DNA of 10,000 nt from Methanospirillum hungatei (GTDB lineage Archaea > Halobacteriota > Methanomicrobia > Methanomicrobiales > Methanospirillaceae): the NCBI RefSeq assembly GCF_020216685.1, contig NZ_JAIWNS010000045.1, forward strand, positions 1 to 10,000, given 5' to 3'. The stretch's first letter is position 1. The number at the start of each line of letters is the position of its first letter. Positions 1,014 through 8,242 of this stretch are shown here, piece after piece. Below the pieces are notes generated by a model. That model was not told the origin of the DNA. It worked only from the letters and a program-made list of their open reading frames with translations, and did not search any database. Position numbers and translations under genes: made by a program.

Positions 1014-1442
1014 TTAAATATGCTCATTTATCTTCTGCAAAATCTCAATGAAGGTCCGGGTATCATCTTCCCCGAGGACTGAGGCGATTTCTCCTGCCAG
1101 GTTCAGATGGTGGCGGTGATGCTCTTCATATGCCAGTGTCCCTTCCTCGGTTAGTTCAATGATATAGGATCGCCGGTCATGTTCTGCTCTCACCCGTCTT
1201 GCAAATCCTCCCCTCTCCAGACGATCAACAGCCATGGTGGTTGTCCCGGTGGTGATACCAAGTCTGCATGCCAGTTCTTTCATATTCATCCGGCCATGAT
1301 GACCAAGAATCTCGATGGCATGTGCATCAGATATCTTCATGTTTCCAGATTCAATGACCGATGATTCCCATGAGGTGAACCGGTCAAAAAATTCTACGAG
1401 TTTTTCGTTTAATTCTTCTCTGAGATGATCTTTTTCTTCCAT
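1014..1442 (-). CDS. MarR-family regulator, AdcR-like metal sensor
   Basis: A 142-aa winged-helix regulator, probably a dimer that controls itself and the downstream metal ATPase. The MarR fold is clear: recognition region ELACRLGITTGTTTMAVDRL at 56-75 and wing residues R83-R91 including HDRRS. The run EEHHRHH at 106-112 closely matches the EEHHHHH run of streptococcal AdcR, where His108 and His112 bind Zn(II) with Glu24 and His42. Here H108 and H112 fall at the same numbers, with H41 and E26 as candidates for the other two ligands. This points to a zinc-sensing MarR; the ligand assignment is inferred. AdcR itself represses uptake genes, so a role next to an exporter would need different logic. 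The ATG at 1442 has an in-frame TGA two codons upstream, which fixes the start; its ribosome site is weak. Confidence 0.88.
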   Translation of the reverse strand: MEEKDHLREELNEKLVEFFDRFTSWESSVIESGNMKISDAHAIEILGHHGRMNMKELACRLGITTGTTTMAVDRLERGGFARRVRAEHDRRSYIIELTEEGTLAYEEHHRHHLNLAGEIASVLGEDDTRTFIEILQKINEHI

Positions 1443-1584: not shown

Positions 1585-1601
1585 TAAAATAAGTGTGTTA
1601 C

Positions 1602-2900
1602 ATGCTTTCACCAGCTCAATCAGATCTTTTCAACCACGAGATTTCATCAGAAACACGTCCTGCCCTCTCTTCAGTTTTGTTTCCACACCTCAGCGTTGAT
1701 GTAAAAGAATCCTCTCCTGATTACATCAATCGAGTTCTGCTCGTAGATGACGAACCTTCATTGCTTGAGATCTCTTCTCTTTTTATTGAAAAAAAAGGGA
1801 ATATATCTGTCGTAAGTTCAGAATGCGCAGAAGATGCCCTAGATATTCTCTCATCCGAGTCATTTGATGCAATTGTATCTGATTATGACATGCCGTGCAT
1901 TAATGGTTTCGAGTTTCTCTCGGTTTTACGAAAAATGGGAAATAATATTCCTTTCATACTCTTCACCGGCAGAGGGAGGGAAGAGGTGGTCATTGAGGCA
2001 TTAAACCGGGGAGCCTCATATTATATCAGAAAAGGTGGAACTCCCACTGTTCAGTTTACCGAACTTGCGCATATTATTCAGCAGGCGGCTCTCAAGCGGA
2101 GGTATGAAGACAGAATTCGGGAGTCAGAAAAACTGATTTATTCGATATTTCACCATCTGCCTGATGCAGCATATGCTTTTGATACGAATGGAAGAGTTCT
2201 GGCATGGAATCACGAGATGGAAGGGCTGACCGGCATTGCGGCAGATAAAGCAATTGGCAAGAAAAATCCTGCACATCTCATCCCATTTTATGCATCCTCT
2301 GATGTTGTGGTAGGGGATATTCTGATACAACCCGGGATTTCGTACCCTGATTGCTGGACAATCCTAAAAGAGCGGGAAGGGATGGTCGTTGCCGAAGTGA
2401 CCTGTGAGCGTCAGACCATGCCAGTCACCTTCAGGGTTACATCCACTCATGTCTATGATCCTGATGGAAAGATCATAGGGGCGATTGAATCTGTCCGCGA
2501 TGTTACTCTGGAAAAGAAAATGCACCAGGATCTTGAAGAGGTGAATTTGTATCATCGGATACTGATTGAATCACATATAGATCCGCTGGTCACCTTGTCT
2601 CCTGATCTGACTATCTGTGATGTGAATGCTGCAACTGAAAATCTCTTCGGCTATTCAAGAGTTGATCTTCTCGGAACAGACATTGCCAGATGGTTTTTGG
2701 AACCGGAAAAGATCCGAAATGTCTGCACTGATATGATGTCCAAAACCGGGTACGTGACCGGGCATCCGTTCACCATTACCTGCAGAGACAGAGAACAGGA
2801 GATCTTCTTGTACGCAACTTCATATCGGGATCCTGAAGGGAGGGTCATGAAGGTTTTTGCTGAGTTTCATGAGTCAGTCCCCTCTGTTCTGAATTCATAG
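1602..2900 (+). CDS. Receiver-PAS-PAS signalling protein (no kinase or DNA-binding domain)
   Basis: A soluble two-component signalling protein. Numbering below is from the alternative GTG start at 1593 (435 aa); the ATG at 1602 gives 432. A receiver domain spans about 46-165, with acidic pair D52/D53, phospho-acceptor D97 in SDYDMP, T125 in LFTG and K147 in YYIRKGG, all the residues needed for phosphorylation. A PAS domain covers about 178-305 (FHHLPDAAYAFDTNGRV) and a second about 320-428 (SHIDPLVTLSPDLTICDVN). No histidine kinase, HTH or output enzyme follows, and the chain stops after the second PAS. Such proteins may relay phosphoryl groups or sense a ligand for a partner kinase. Neither start has a clear ribosome site; ATG is preferred because TAA lies directly before the GTG. 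The partner kinase is unknown; the DtxR-kinase fusion nearby is a possible but unproven one. Confidence 0.87.
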   Translation: MLSPAQSDLFNHEISSETRPALSSVLFPHLSVDVKESSPDYINRVLLVDDEPSLLEISSLFIEKKGNISVVSSECAEDALDILSSESFDAIVSDYDMPCINGFEFLSVLRKMGNNIPFILFTGRGREEVVIEALNRGASYYIRKGGTPTVQFTELAHIIQQAALKRRYEDRIRESEKLIYSIFHHLPDAAYAFDTNGRVLAWNHEMEGLTGIAADKAIGKKNPAHLIPFYASSDVVVGDILIQPGISYPDCWTILKEREGMVVAEVTCERQTMPVTFRVTSTHVYDPDGKIIGAIESVRDVTLEKKMHQDLEEVNLYHRILIESHIDPLVTLSPDLTICDVNAATENLFGYSRVDLLGTDIARWFLEPEKIRNVCTDMMSKTGYVTGHPFTITCRDREQEIFLYATSYRDPEGRVMKVFAEFHESVPSVLNS

Positions 2901-3753: not shown

Positions 3754-4986
3754 TTATTGAACCTGAAATGAGCAGGGATGAGATATGGGTTGACTGATGT
3801 CAGGTAAAACCGGTTCGGCTTTGGGTATGGGCATGTTCACAAACCGGTACAGCCCATTTGGAATCATTATCTCAAATCGTGCTCCTGCTCCATATGTACC
3901 GCATTCTGTTATCTGCATACCGCAGGCACTCAGGACCTGATATGCAAGATACAGGCCGGTTCCTCTGTTATTCTGTGCAGATGTCCGAAACAGCTGATCC
4001 TTATACTCGTCAGGGATTCCGATGCCATCATCCTGGATAAACCATACCAGCGAGTTTTCCTTCTGCATATAACCGCATGTAATCCGGGTCACCCCGTCTC
4101 CATGTCTGATTGCGTTGTCTATCAGGTTATATACCACTTTTTCGATTAAAGTATCTCCGAATATTTCAATTAAATCAAGATTTTGCTCAACGACTGCTGA
4201 TCCTAAGAGCACCATTGATTCTGCATGGGTGATGAGCTGACCAAGATTCATCCATTTCTGTCCTGCAAGACCTGGAATGAGATGATCTGAACTGGTTGAT
4301 ACCTGTCTGTTCATCGCCTGGACTGTCCCTTCGATACGTGAGACAACAAGTTTCATCTCTTCACTGGTCGTCATGGTCCTCAGCAGATCCAGGTACCGGT
4401 ACAGGGCGGTTATCGTATTGAGCAGGTCATGGCGGGTAATAAGCGATAAGATCTCATGATTTGCCTGAGATTTCCGTGCTGAGTGCATGACCATCTCTTT
4501 TAAAACCGGTTCCTGAACGGTTGCTGCATTTTCCCATGATATCCCGGTATTCTGCATCTTCAGAAAGAATTTCAGGGCAGATATGGTCTGACCTCCAGCC
4601 GGAGTGCCCAAAAAACTTACCAGGTTTCCTATAGCAGAAGTAGTGACGGGGGATAACTCATGTTCGATAATACAGGCTTCCTTATTTGCAATATCCGGGG
4701 AAACCCCGATAAATTCAAAAAATTGTCGCAGTGTTTCATGACGGATGTGAATGACTTCTCCCCGTAATCTTCCCTCCTGAGTGAGAAATATCCCTTCATA
4801 CCGTCTCCATTCAACAAAACCGAGCTTTGCTATCTTTCCGACCATCTCAACCACGGAAGATGGTGAGACGTTCAGTGACCTGGCTATCTCCCCGGTCCGT
4901 GCATATCCTTTGTCTTTACTGAGAACATAAATTGTCTCGAGGTAATCTTCCATTGCCTGAGATAATTTCTGAACTTGTTTTTTCAT
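3754..4986 (-). CDS. DtxR/MntR-type metal repressor fused to a histidine kinase
   Basis: A 410-aa two-part regulator. Residues 8-140 are a DtxR/MntR repressor: winged helix at about 14-72 and the dimerisation/metal domain after it. The candidate metal ligands are D14, E17, H83, C105, E108 and H109. D14/E17 match the MntR arrangement, while C105-x2-E108-H109 matches DtxR, where this position is Cys and the metal is iron. Residues 176-230 carry a kinase dimerisation helix with H-box TRHDLLNT (H186). Residues about 245-377 are the ATPase domain with N-box NLIDNAIRHG (287-296), DDGIGIP (319-325) and RGTGL (341-345). No transmembrane segment or SH3 domain; a Pro-rich tail follows 378. The start at 4986 has AGGAGG at 4994-4999. 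As the last gene of the feo operon it probably senses Fe(II) and represses the operon. What the kinase phosphorylates is unknown. Confidence 0.9.
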   Translation of the reverse strand: MKKQVQKLSQAMEDYLETIYVLSKDKGYARTGEIARSLNVSPSSVVEMVGKIAKLGFVEWRRYEGIFLTQEGRLRGEVIHIRHETLRQFFEFIGVSPDIANKEACIIEHELSPVTTSAIGNLVSFLGTPAGGQTISALKFFLKMQNTGISWENAATVQEPVLKEMVMHSARKSQANHEILSLITRHDLLNTITALYRYLDLLRTMTTSEEMKLVVSRIEGTVQAMNRQVSTSSDHLIPGLAGQKWMNLGQLITHAESMVLLGSAVVEQNLDLIEIFGDTLIEKVVYNLIDNAIRHGDGVTRITCGYMQKENSLVWFIQDDGIGIPDEYKDQLFRTSAQNNRGTGLYLAYQVLSACGMQITECGTYGAGARFEIMIPNGLYRFVNMPIPKAEPVLPDISQPISHPCSFQVQ

Positions 4987-5278
4987 CCCATTTCCTCCTG
5001 ATTAGGGTCTGTCCCCGTTGCGTGAGTTCTACTCTGCTTTCACTGAAATTTTTCTTTTCTTCACAGGTACAATGACAGCAGACGCATTTCATACCGCTTT
5101 TCCTGCATGCACAACCTTTTGATTCTTCTCCGTCCCGTTTCAGATACCCGGTGCTGCACCACATGGAAATCCAGGATTGTACTGATTGTACCGGGATATC
5201 AAGTTCCAGAGCAAGTTCGGAGAGGAGGCATCCCCCCCGTTTCCTGATGAGCTGAAGAATTTCAAGACCTTCACTCAC
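4916..5278 (-). CDS. FeoC-like winged-helix protein with dense Cys cluster
   Basis: A 120-aa cytoplasmic protein. Residues 1-50 form a winged-helix HTH (GLEILQLIRKRGG, then LSELALELDIPVQSVQSWI), as in FeoC, the small partner of FeoB. In bacterial FeoC the wing carries four Cys that bind an oxygen-sensitive Fe-S cluster. Here residues 56-72 hold seven (C56, C58, C65, C67, C68, C70, C72), plus C17, C41 and C118. A basic tail follows. The start is chosen as GTG 5278: a perfect GGAGGTGA lies 5 nt before it, and the GTG overlaps the end of the membrane gene by 8 nt, implying translational coupling. Upstream in-frame ATGs lack such a site. Its 3' end overlaps the DtxR-kinase gene by 71 nt. It may sense Fe-S status and modulate FeoB or transcription; FeoC identity rests on fold and context, not close sequence match. 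Confidence 0.78.
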   Translation of the reverse strand: MSEGLEILQLIRKRGGCLLSELALELDIPVQSVQSWISMWCSTGYLKRDGEESKGCACRKSGMKCVCCHCTCEEKKNFSESRVELTQRGQTLIRRKWDEKTSSEIISGNGRLPRDNLCSQ

Positions 5279-5714
5279 AGCAGTCACCTCCACATGAACA
5301 CCCATACAGGAGTTTTGATACTCCGGCAAGGAGGGGTATGGCGAGAATTGCTGCCCATATGAAAGATGAACTAACGATAGTCAGGAGATGTGCCTCTTCA
5401 CCCTCCATGATGAGGGTAAGGAAATTACCGGTTTCAACCAGGATTGCACATCCGGCAAATACTACCAGGAGCAGGGCCCCGATGTAGGAGAAGCTGATCC
5501 AGCCCGGACGGTCTGTTCTGCCTTTTATGACTGCAGTAGCGAAGAGTGCAGCGATAAGGAGAAGGATGCATCCACCGGGGATATCCGGGATGAAAAGACC
5601 AGTCCCTATTCCGGCTCCCTCTCGTATTGATATGATACCGGCGATACCGGTGGTCAGTGTTACTATTCCTGTCCACCCATAGAGATACTGGTGAGGGTAT
5701 GTTGTATTATTCAT
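5271..5714 (-). CDS. Four-helix membrane protein with Cys-rich C-terminal tail
   Basis: A 147-aa integral membrane protein of no family I recognise. Hydrophobic segments at about 13-30, 47-63, 73-93 and 109-136 give four helices, which would put both ends on the same side. It ends in YGCSCGGDCCE, with C139, C141, C145 and C146 in eight residues, plus C49 and C89 inside helices. This recalls the short FeoB-associated Cys-rich membrane proteins of bacteria, which are one-helix peptides with a Cys/Gly tail, but here the anchor is four helices. It begins 2 nt after the feoB stop with a GGAG site inside the end of feoB, so it is made together with the transporter. A role in receiving or handing over Fe(II) at the FeoB exit is an inference from position and cysteines. 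Confidence 0.82.
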   Translation of the reverse strand: MNNTTYPHQYLYGWTGIVTLTTGIAGIISIREGAGIGTGLFIPDIPGGCILLLIAALFATAVIKGRTDRPGWISFSYIGALLLVVFAGCAILVETGNFLTLIMEGEEAHLLTIVSSSFIWAAILAIPLLAGVSKLLYGCSCGGDCCE

Positions 5715-5716
5715 GT

Positions 5717-7705
5717 TTATGCTCCGATGAAGAGTGAACCTACGTGTACTATGATGAATGCGAAGACGTATGCGACGAAAATTCCCCATCCGATTGCGAT
5801 TCCTGTCCATTTCCAGGTGCCCATCTCCTGTCTGATTACTCCGAGTGCAGCCACACAGGGAAGGTAGAGGAGGACAAAGACCATGTATGCCAGGGCAATT
5901 ATCGGATGTAAGGTCGGGTCTGCAGCAAGGGATGATTCCAGCATCTCTTCTCCTCCATAGAGGGTTCCAAGAGATCCGACGACGACTTCTTTTGCGATGA
6001 ATCCGAAGATGAGTCCGACGACCAGCTGCCAGTTAAACCCAAGCGGGGCAAATACTGGCTGGAATACCTGTCCGATGATTCCTACAAGGCTGTCTGCTGA
6101 TCCATATTCAACTCCTGCCGGGAGGGTTGCTAATGCCCAGACGACGATAACTCCTCCAAAGATGACAAGACCTGCACGTTTCAGGTATTCCCTGCCTTTG
6201 AACCACATATGAACCGCTGCAGCAAATCCGCTGGGTTTCCGGTATGGTGGGAGTTCCATGATGAAGGGTGATGGTTCATCCTTGAATACCAGCCGCCGGA
6301 ATATCAGGGCTGACAGGATTGCAACCACGATTCCGAGGACATACAGGAAGAATATGACATTTCCTGCAGCAGCTCCGAAGAATACGCCTGCAAAGAGTAC
6401 ATATACGGGAAGTCGTGCTGCACAGGACATGAACGGGATGGTGATGATGGTAATAATCCGGTCTGCTCTGCTCTGCAGTGTTCTGGTTGCCATGATAGCC
6501 GGCACATTACACCCAAATCCGATAAGGAACGGAATGAATGAACGACCATGCAGACCGACCGAATGCATAAGCCGGTCCATGACAAATGCTGCCCTGGCCA
6601 GGTATCCCGTATCTTCAAGGATGGAGAGCAGCAGGAACATGACAAATATGCTTGGAACAAAGACGAGCACCGATCCCACTCCGCCTATTACCCCGTCAGA
6701 CAGAAATGATCTGATCAATGGATCCATATCGACGCTGTTCATGAGCTCAGTGAAATACCCGAATATGTACTCTATTCCGACGATGAACGGGTTGGAAGCA
6801 CTGAAGGTGAGCTGGAACGCAAACCACATGCATGAGAGGAAGATTGGTATCCCGAATAACCGATGTGTCAGGACCTGGTCGATAAGATCACCGGGCATGA
6901 CCCTGCCCATGGAACATTGTACTGAACAGGTTGTGATCTCTTCCGAAATCTTGTATCTGGCAAGTAAAATGTCCTCAGCAATACCGTCCCGCTCTGCCGG
7001 ATCAGTGGTATCGATGAATGGAATGGTACATCCTTTTTCATGCAGCATCTTTTCAAGGTGTTCGTCACCTTCCATCAACCGTATTGCTGCGTAGTGAGGA
7101 GAAAGACTGCCCAATAGTGATGCGTGTGCACTGAGATAATTACCGATTTCGGAGATGTGGGATGTGACCGAATGGGGGTATTCGACCGCTCTGTGGACGG
7201 CGGGGGTTTTATGTGTGGAGACCTGAATGATGGTTTTGATTAATTCCTCTACTCCTTCTCCTTTCCGTGCAACAATCCTGACAACCGGAATCTTCAGATT
7301 CCTCTCAAGGCAATCGGCATCGATGGTCATTCCTTGTTCATCTGCAAGATCACACATATTGAGAGCGATGACCATTGGAAGTCCGATTTCCATCAATTGT
7401 GTGGTTAAAAACAGGTTTCTTTCGATATTTGTGGCATCAATGATCTGGATGACTACATCCGGACCAGACGATAGGAGTGCGTCACGGGCAACCTGCTCAT
7501 CCGGAGTAAATGCTGACAGACTGTATGTCCCGGGAAGGTCAGAAACAATGATTGAGTGGCCATTGATCTGCCGTTTTCCTGTCTTTATCTCAACCGTCAC
7601 TCCAGGATAATTCCCGGTGTGCTGGTGTACCCCGCATATGCTGTTAAACAGGGTGGTTTTCCCCACATTCGGGTTTCCTGCAAATAATATACGAATATCT
7701 TTCAT
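5717..7705 (-). CDS. feoB: Ferrous iron transporter FeoB
   Basis: A 662-aa inner-membrane Fe(II) importer with an N-terminal GTPase. G-protein motifs: G1 GNPNVGKT (10-17), switch region TGNYPGVTVE (30-39), G3 DLPG (56-59) and G4 NMCD (116-119), which specifies guanine. A helical linker runs to about 265, followed by the membrane core. Core signatures are the Gate-type motif GFGCNVPAI (396-404, with C399) and AKEVVVGSLGTLYG (571-584). Length is somewhat shorter than the 700-770 aa of enterobacterial FeoB, as in many archaeal forms. The start is ATG 7705, just before MKDIRILFAGNP, with GAGG overlapping the feoA2 stop; a farther upstream ATG would overlap feoA2 deeply and lacks support. It is third in the feo operon. 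Confidence 0.97.
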   Translation of the reverse strand: MKDIRILFAGNPNVGKTTLFNSICGVHQHTGNYPGVTVEIKTGKRQINGHSIIVSDLPGTYSLSAFTPDEQVARDALLSSGPDVVIQIIDATNIERNLFLTTQLMEIGLPMVIALNMCDLADEQGMTIDADCLERNLKIPVVRIVARKGEGVEELIKTIIQVSTHKTPAVHRAVEYPHSVTSHISEIGNYLSAHASLLGSLSPHYAAIRLMEGDEHLEKMLHEKGCTIPFIDTTDPAERDGIAEDILLARYKISEEITTCSVQCSMGRVMPGDLIDQVLTHRLFGIPIFLSCMWFAFQLTFSASNPFIVGIEYIFGYFTELMNSVDMDPLIRSFLSDGVIGGVGSVLVFVPSIFVMFLLLSILEDTGYLARAAFVMDRLMHSVGLHGRSFIPFLIGFGCNVPAIMATRTLQSRADRIITIITIPFMSCAARLPVYVLFAGVFFGAAAGNVIFFLYVLGIVVAILSALIFRRLVFKDEPSPFIMELPPYRKPSGFAAAVHMWFKGREYLKRAGLVIFGGVIVVWALATLPAGVEYGSADSLVGIIGQVFQPVFAPLGFNWQLVVGLIFGFIAKEVVVGSLGTLYGGEEMLESSLAADPTLHPIIALAYMVFVLLYLPCVAALGVIRQEMGTWKWTGIAIGWGIFVAYVFAFIIVHVGSLFIGA

Positions 7706-7712
7706 CGTATCC

Positions 7713-7937
7713 TCATTTTCGTGGTTCAACGAGAACCATGCTGGCTGCTCCGGCTCCAAGGGCGTATCTGCTCTCTCCTATCCGGACAATCACTGATTCT
7801 TTTGCTTTTTGAATGATTGTAAGTTCGATTCCGATAATGATCCCGAGCTGACCCAGAGTTTTCGCCAGGTGGCCGGTCCCACAGATTGACCTGACTACAA
7901 CCTTTTCACCGCTCTTTGTAAGGCTGAGAGGAACCAT
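7713..7937 (-). CDS. feoA: FeoA domain protein (second copy)
   Basis: A 74-aa cytoplasmic SH3-like protein of the FeoA family, needed with FeoB for Fe(II) uptake. The FeoA pattern is visible as LAKTLGQLGIIIGIELTIIQ (34-53), then VIVRIGESRYALGAGAASMVLVE. It differs strongly from the first FeoA in the operon, lacking the basic RRRLMEMG stretch, so the two copies have probably specialised, perhaps as the two faces of a hetero-oligomer on FeoB. The ATG at 7937 lies 7 nt after the feoA1 stop; a TTG 30 nt upstream would extend it into feoA1 and is less likely. Confidence 0.92.
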   Translation of the reverse strand: MVPLSLTKSGEKVVVRSICGTGHLAKTLGQLGIIIGIELTIIQKAKESVIVRIGESRYALGAGAASMVLVEPRK

Positions 7938-7944
7938 GGCGCTC

Positions 7945-8187
7945 TCACTTCCCCTTCTTTGGTTCAACGGTTATCAGGGCCGCTTCTGCCCTACGGAGGG
8001 AGAGTTTGTACCCACGAATGTTGCATTCGGCAGGGTCTCCAAGGGGTGCCCATTTGATAAGGGTAAGTTCAGAACCTGGCAGAACGCCCATTTCCATTAA
8101 TCTTCGACGAATAGCCGGTTCCCCCTGAATTGACGAAATAATTCCTGATGTTCCAGGGGGAAGTTGCTCAACAGTGATCGTAGACAT
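7945..8187 (-). CDS. feoA: FeoA domain protein (first copy)
   Basis: An 80-aa SH3-like FeoA protein, first gene of the iron operon. The family core is clear: LPPGTSGIISSIQG (9-22), RRRLMEMGVLPGSELTLIK (27-45), NIRGYKLSLRRAEAALITVE (56-75). In the family it binds the FeoB transporter in the cytoplasm and supports iron uptake; in a DtxR-like relative the same fold is a regulatory SH3 domain. That is interesting because the DtxR-kinase at the end of this operon lacks that domain. AGGTGA at 8191-8196 is its ribosome site, with a short 3-nt spacing. Only about 20-25 nt of leader are expected from the TATA position. Confidence 0.95.
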   Translation of the reverse strand: MSTITVEQLPPGTSGIISSIQGEPAIRRRLMEMGVLPGSELTLIKWAPLGDPAECNIRGYKLSLRRAEAALITVEPKKGK

Positions 8188-8202
8188 AACTCACCTAATA
8201 AT

Positions 8203-8218
8203 TTTAGTATAATCTAAA
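8203..8218. promoter_or_regulatory. Dyad at the feo transcription start, candidate iron-repressor site
   Basis: TTTAG-TATAAT-CTAAA is an inverted repeat with 5-bp arms and a 6-bp spacer, and the flanks (AAT on the left, TTT on the right) nearly extend it. It lies 16-31 bp before feoA1 and about 25 bp downstream of a TATA box, on the expected transcription start. TTAG/CTAA half-sites also occur in DtxR/IdeR-type boxes. The DtxR-kinase encoded at the operon's end is the obvious candidate binder; this is inference. Confidence 0.42.
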
Positions 8219-8230
8219 TTTTTATGTGAA

Positions 8231-8242
8231 CATATATAAAAT
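8231..8242 (-). promoter_or_regulatory. TATA box of the feo operon
   Basis: On the minus strand the sequence reads TTTTATATATG, a good archaeal TATA box, about 45 bp upstream of the feoA1 ATG. Initiation would be expected near 8210, inside the dyad at 8203-8218. Confidence 0.55.

Follow-up and report, generated by a model that had tools for sequence, protein, structure and literature searches.

DtxR-family regulators and histidine kinases belong to two styles of control that are usually separate, the one-component repressor and the two-component kinase. What, then, might be sensed, and what might be controlled, by an archaeal protein that combines them? We addressed this question for a gene in a 10,000-nt stretch of Methanospirillum hungatei DNA (hereafter, the window), for which an initial annotation, made from the sequence alone, had proposed a DtxR-type metal regulator fused to a complete histidine kinase. 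Such a molecule could bind DNA and also send a phosphate signal upon a change in metal level.

A metal repressor and a kinase core in one frame

The gene is one open frame with an ATG start, encoding an MntR/DtxR repressor (residues 7-128) joined to a histidine-kinase core (approximately residues 173-382; Table 1). A domain search bore out the proposed combination: the N-terminal DtxR domain (Fe_dep_repress, PF01325; E 1.8e-19, 70.1 bits against a cut-off of 26), the DtxR dimerisation domain (Fe_dep_repr_C, PF02742; E 1.5e-11, 44.6 bits against 27) and the ATPase domain (HATPase_c, PF02518; E 4.7e-13, 50 bits against 26.4) all exceeded the curated Pfam cut-offs. The residues named at the outset were all found in place, namely D14, E17, H83, C105, E108 and H109 of the metal site, of which the first two are supplied by the first helix, as well as H186 and the ATP-site boxes NLIDNAIRHG (the N-box), DDGIGIP and RGTGL. 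Pfam HisKA did not match the protein at E 0.01, and the phospho-acceptor helix was identified by alignment to the other kinases of the genus (consensus TRHDILN), with which H186 aligns within the motif TRHDLLN.

The MntR equivalog model of NCBIfam (NF003025) scored 114.2 bits on the window protein, under its curated cut-off of 138; the fusion is a member of the DtxR family but not the named MntR equivalog. MntR structures are the nearest solved relatives of its DtxR part. The predicted structure of the fusion (mean pLDDT 66.4, pTM 0.40) was poor in the linker and the phospho-acceptor region, and the model was used for the domain folds only and not for their coupling. Where the fusion proteins are named in databases, they appear as 'ATP-binding protein', 'hypothetical protein' or 'Mn-dependent DtxR family transcriptional regulator'.

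Table 1. Features of the fusion locus, in window coordinates.
Feature	Position	Strand	Basis
REC-PAS-PAS protein, tail-to-tail with the fusion, candidate partner response regulator	1593..2900	+	Pfam, locus comparison
DtxR/MntR-histidine kinase fusion gene, 410 aa	3754..4986	-	ORF, Pfam, conservation
HATPase_c catalytic ATP-binding domain, residues 280-376	3859..4149	-	Pfam
Phospho-acceptor/dimerisation helices (DHp), residues 173-230; H186 codon at 4429-4431	4297..4470	-	Alignments
Linker, residues 129-172	4471..4602	-	Alignment of full-length fusion rows
Fe_dep_repr_C metal-binding/dimerisation domain, residues 69-128 (H83, C105, E108, H109)	4603..4782	-	Pfam
Fe_dep_repress winged-helix DNA-binding domain, residues 7-65	4792..4968	-	Pfam
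Ribosome-binding site AGGAGG, 7 nt upstream of the fusion's ATG	4994..4999	-	Read directly
137-aa protein, Cys-rich C-terminal half; its end overlaps the start of the fusion	4916..5329	-	ORF
Small hydrophobic-looking protein, Cys-rich C-terminus; ORF of 179 aa, true start probably inside	5271..5810	-	ORF
feoB, ferrous iron transporter	5717..7759	-	Pfam, NCBIfam
feoA2 (first-start ORF; true start may be further in)	7713..7967	-	Pfam
feoA1, first gene of the row	7945..8187	-	Pfam
Candidate operator AATTTAGATTATACTAAAATT upstream of feoA1	8200..8220	-	Cross-species comparison, pattern search
TATA-like element upstream of the operator, promoter role inferred	8232..8239	-	Read directly

As compared with MntR of Bacillus subtilis and B. 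halodurans, also of the DtxR family, the fusion has a cysteine at the Glu99 position and carries a histidine-kinase core after the DtxR domains. The same mixed Asp/Cys/Glu/His site occurs in MntR of Porphyromonas gingivalis (PgMntR), a DtxR-family protein with a C-terminal extension of its own; this extension consists of two FeoA domains, a manganese-transporter promoter is bound by the protein, and no kinase is described in the part of that source considered here (PMC4805248). PgMntR takes both Mn(II) and Fe(II), of which Mn(II) strengthens and Fe(II) weakens DNA binding (PMC4805248). Because its ligand set matches this mixed site, the metal of the fusion need not be iron, although the feo setting described below favours iron.

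Distribution and origin of the fusion

We found the fusion in at least 27 protein clusters, 26 of them with residues 1-175 as the query and the 27th by profile search. One of these, P0008, is a 274-aa fragment that has no ATPase domain, another (P0026) is without the N-terminus, and a third (P0015) is without a precomputed HATPase_c match. The source names of the clusters, where given, are Methanospirillum, 'Methanomicrobiales archaeon', 'Methanobacteriota archaeon' or a bare family name. In 9 of 12 Methanospirillum genomes the frame is intact (G000, G198, G201 and G203-G208), and intact copies include those of M. hungatei (P0003; a single contig of 3,544,738 bp) and M. stamsii DSM 26304. In a tenth genome, G200 (99% complete), what is left is a DtxR fragment of about 80 residues, interrupted by a stop and a frameshift (L081:8048-8290), and feoAAB and both small genes are retained, representing a natural loss of the fusion. 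The fusion was not found in the two remaining genomes, G199 and G202, which are 67% and 84% complete.

Profile searches, which scored the candidates sharing most words (7,999 and 7,998) and of which the second gave the best 120 of 361 matches, detected no fusion beyond these clusters among the matches listed, the others being stand-alone DtxR proteins, ordinary kinases or fragments. A scan of named genome contigs yielded three loci, all of the DtxR-kinase fusion family. A DtxR match of some kind is present in 227 of the 232 genomes of the order Methanomicrobiales; among the matches listed for these genomes, open DtxR frames longer than 300 aa outside the genus were seen in G081, G082, G094 and G212, with no kinase match to the DtxR frames of the last three. 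The scan for this architecture that the initial annotation had called for showed the fusion to be a conserved, feo-linked feature of the genus, with none elsewhere among the matches listed.

The best stand-alone DtxR regulators of the Methanomicrobiales are about 50% identical to the DtxR part, with the same six metal ligands in all 32 aligned relatives; unlike the fusion they have no kinase and are mostly about 145-190 aa in length, nearly all of those outside the genus being shorter than the fusion among the matches listed. We read 12 of their loci, picked from the best or longest DtxR frames outside the genus (L049-L060), and found feoA/feoB matches in 11, L058 being the exception; some of these feo matches are to distant FeoB types.

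The kinase part has its relatives closer by. With the whole fusion protein as the query, the window's genome gives 73 matches, almost all of them via the kinase part. The histidine kinases of Methanospirillum share with the fusion the TRHDxxN acceptor motif and the HATPase core, and their long matches to it reach about 40% identity. These kinases carry PAS, REC, HAMP or Cache-type domains: in 60 kinase frames (the 30 best in each of two genomes; 25 of 28 families shown, with some frames cut at the N-terminus by stretch ends), the PAS model matched 42 and the DtxR models matched 2, leaving 58 without a DtxR match. Because the 73 matches run mostly through the kinase part and the acceptor motif is held in common, the simplest history would be one in which a kinase core from the large family already present in the genus was joined to a feo-linked repressor.

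Both halves of the protein are ordinary, and it is their combination that appears to be new. The word DtxR is absent from the main text of the archaeal two-component census (PMC5847659) and from the M. hungatei genome paper (PMC4704411), and a literature search of titles and the starts of abstracts, with most subscription journals outside its coverage, found no description of a DtxR-kinase fusion among the papers listed.

Between the window and G198 (L044:6231-7463), the two kinase halves hardly differ (dS 0.00-0.02) and the DtxR halves differ more (dS 0.21), a pattern that hints at recombination of the kinase end.

The feo gene row and a candidate operator

The fusion gene is the last of a feoA-feoA-feoB row in 8 of the 9 intact loci, and the contig of the ninth (G206) ends before feoB. 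Directly ahead of it, two small genes are present in all nine: the protein that follows feoB (5271..5810) and the 137-aa protein (4916..5329) are each conserved in place, between feoB and the fusion, at every intact locus. Neither has a match in Pfam or NCBIfam; we take the 137-aa protein to be, possibly, a FeoC-like regulator.

Ahead of feoA1 lies a dyad, TTTAG-N6-CTAAA, in a region that can be aligned across species only close to the gene. In the closer species a TATA-like element is followed by AATTTAGATNANNCTAA, with G204, G207 and G200 carrying a less symmetric form. Since the dyad (8200-8220) directly follows the TATA-like element (8239-8232), it would cover the expected transcription start.

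The pattern that we searched for was built from the feoA1 promoters, and its matches at feoA1 are therefore by construction. At no more than one mismatch it occurred once in the window's genome and 16 times across the 12 genomes, compared with 18 times for the reversed control, so that the motif shows no genome-wide enrichment and its value lies in its position. Nine of the 16 matches are at feoA1 (including G200, in which the site is still present at one mismatch although the fusion is lost), one is at a second feo operon of G198, and 6 are elsewhere. All six exact matches in the 12 genomes lie upstream of a feoA; of these, only the match at the second feo operon in G198 is independent of the sites used to build the pattern. 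A weight matrix derived from six feoA1 sites scored the second feo site at 27.8 in G198, 13.9 in G000 and 12.6 in G203; scores of about 11-14 are also found at unrelated places. The three second-operon sites lie about 28 bases before a feoA (Pfam), at the same distance in all three genomes. At the second feo operon of G208 there was no matrix score above 11, and a weaker similar sequence can be read there by eye. The 11 loci of stand-alone DtxR relatives that were searched gave only loose TTTAG/CTAAA-like matches, in some of them, on which we base no conclusion.

A one-mismatch operator-like site also occurs in G204 (L092:1497-1513, minus strand), about 60 bases before a gene of the CbiM type for cobalt uptake (Pfam CbiM, E 5.4e-56); this may be a chance match.

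Proposed coupling of the two halves and a candidate partner

We aligned 35 rows (the window, P0001-P0027 and seven genome copies; 33 distinct sequences). The six metal ligands are invariant in all 34 rows with an N-terminus (P0026 being without the first two), and H186 is kept in all 35, so that the loss of ATP binding and of this residue in all relatives, which had been raised as a means of refutation, was looked for and not seen. The linker is 44 residues long and gap-free in all 33 full-length rows (P0008 and P0026 excluded), with a mean identity of 0.43 overall and 0.35 over residues 141-172. For comparison, the DtxR part has no gaps and a mean identity of 0.79, DHp has one type of gap (0.56), the catalytic ATP-binding part (CA) has four (0.51), and the C-terminal tail has fifteen (0.12). 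A linker whose length is fixed while its sequence diverges suggests that two dimeric modules may be mechanically coupled.

The reading that we tentatively prefer, at a confidence just short of even, is that the fusion is an autoregulating feo repressor and a metal sensor with two outputs, in which the metal domain replaces the PAS sensor of a cytoplasmic kinase. As homology and the fixed ligands suggest, Fe(II) or Mn(II) would fill the MntR-type site of the dimer. The metal-bound dimer would then bind the TTTAG-N6-CTAAA dyad just past the TATA-like element, a step for which the basis is sequence footprinting, and would shut off feoAAB and its own gene; it would probably act on the second feoAB operon as well. 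Binding of metal or operator would in turn set the state of the dimeric kinase core, in which phosphate would pass from ATP to H186, because the DtxR domain occupies, on a linker of fixed length, the position of PAS in sibling kinases. Three directions of coupling had been left open by the initial annotation, and the data lean to the metal domain as the predicted input of the kinase. We infer metal-dependent repression of feo and of the gene itself, kinase activity, coupling and partner alike from sequence. Against this reading stand the 8 of 34 rows, including that of M. stamsii (G208), that are without at least one of the ATP-site residues checked, the genome that has lost the fusion and yet keeps feo and its upstream site (G200), the second-operon site, whose score drops in G000 and G203 and does not reach the threshold in G208, and the weakness of the structure model in the linker and phospho-acceptor helices. 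Within a single stretch of 7 kb are a likely input (a metal), a probable target promoter and a receiver candidate, so that the input side of an archaeal kinase can be tested directly.

A bolder form of this proposal, which we regard as somewhat doubtful, is that of a DNA-bound histidine kinase, a metal repressor seated on its operator in which metal and DNA occupancy would switch the attached kinase directly. If true, transcription factor and phosphorelay head would be one molecule.

Coupling in the reverse direction seems unlikely to us. Here, ATP binding, phosphorylation of H186 or reversed phosphotransfer from a phosphorylated receiver would alter the hold of the dimer on the feo operator, and the kinase would feed the transcription factor as an additional sensor, either of the energy state or of some other pathway. 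The clearest output of the protein is indeed a DNA-binding domain beside a candidate operator, and H186 is kept despite an eroded ATP site in P0014, P0015 and G205, as if this histidine were phosphorylated from elsewhere; the invariant length of the linker fits either direction. However, the other domains of the sibling kinases are mostly sensor types such as PAS, indicating that the position is usually that of an input, and no receiver gene adjoins all of the fusion copies.

We also consider it improbable that the kinase is silent, serving as an extra dimerisation clamp or as a phosphatase or docking module in an otherwise ordinary DtxR repressor. The kinase core had been described as complete, which is true of the window protein and of 26 of the 34 ATPase-containing rows, in which all four ATP-site residues checked are kept. 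In the other rows at least one is gone: the N-box Asn 291 (kept in 30/34) is lost in P0009, P0014, P0015 and G205, the G1 Asp 319 (32/34) in P0015 and G205, the first G2 Gly (27/34) is replaced in P0006, P0010, P0014, P0015, G208, G206 and G205, and the second (30/34) in P0009, P0014, P0015 and G205. As P0015 is the same record as G205 and P0006 resembles G206, these losses represent fewer lineages than rows. They fit a silent kinase, as do the loss of the gene in G200 and the faster drop of CA identity than of DtxR identity among the fusions. Set against them are the universal retention of H186 and a CA conservation within the range of ordinary kinase orthologues: between G000 and G201 the fusion is 0.75 identical in DHp and 0.62 in CA, values that fall inside the spread of 15 further reciprocal-best kinase pairs, taken from the top 30 kinase loci per genome, and the difference of 0.13 compares with -0.04 to 0.18 in those pairs. 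The CA dN/dS was 0.11-0.39 over the pairs that NG86 resolves, many pairs being saturated.

To the idea that two genes were read as one through sequencing or assembly we give practically no credence, since a stop or frameshift between residues 140 and 176 was looked for and not found, the same unbroken frame recurs in nine genomes, of which G198, G201 and G207 are each a single contig, and in many protein clusters, and no point in its support was found.

If the fusion is a metal sensor with two outputs, as we prefer, its phosphate would pass to a receiver, and the REC-PAS-PAS protein encoded tail-to-tail with it comes first among the candidates. The archaeal census of Galperin et al. (2018) describes kinases located in the archaeal cytoplasm, as well as REC-PAS-PAS regulators for which no output is known (PMC5847659). 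For M. hungatei, the genome paper reports 82 kinases that are generally unlinked genetically, and hence suggest no partner (PMC4704411). Of the 9 intact fusion loci, 5 have a REC-PAS-PAS gene on the far side of the fusion, in tail-to-tail orientation (G000, G208, G204, G207 and G205, where it is cut by the contig end); in each of these genomes nothing matches the window copy better than this neighbour, and all five keep the acceptor motif SD(Y/F)DMP. In G198 only the last 69 residues of the neighbour are left, and in G201, G203 and G206 (2.5 kb seen in the last) no REC-PAS-PAS gene adjoins the fusion, which is retained in all four; longer, partly similar proteins are found further beyond the fusion in G201 and G203. 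Because it is absent or a remnant at some loci where the fusion persists, we regard the REC-PAS-PAS protein as an ancestral neighbour and as a candidate but non-obligate partner, and a receiver encoded elsewhere would have to serve where the gene is absent. The locus of G205, in which the neighbour is kept beside a fusion with an eroded ATP site, argues against a strict kinase-receiver pair.

The window also encodes a MarR-family regulator (1014-1442, minus strand), a close relative of which, 79-93% identical, also lies beyond the fusion in G198, G201, G203 and G208.
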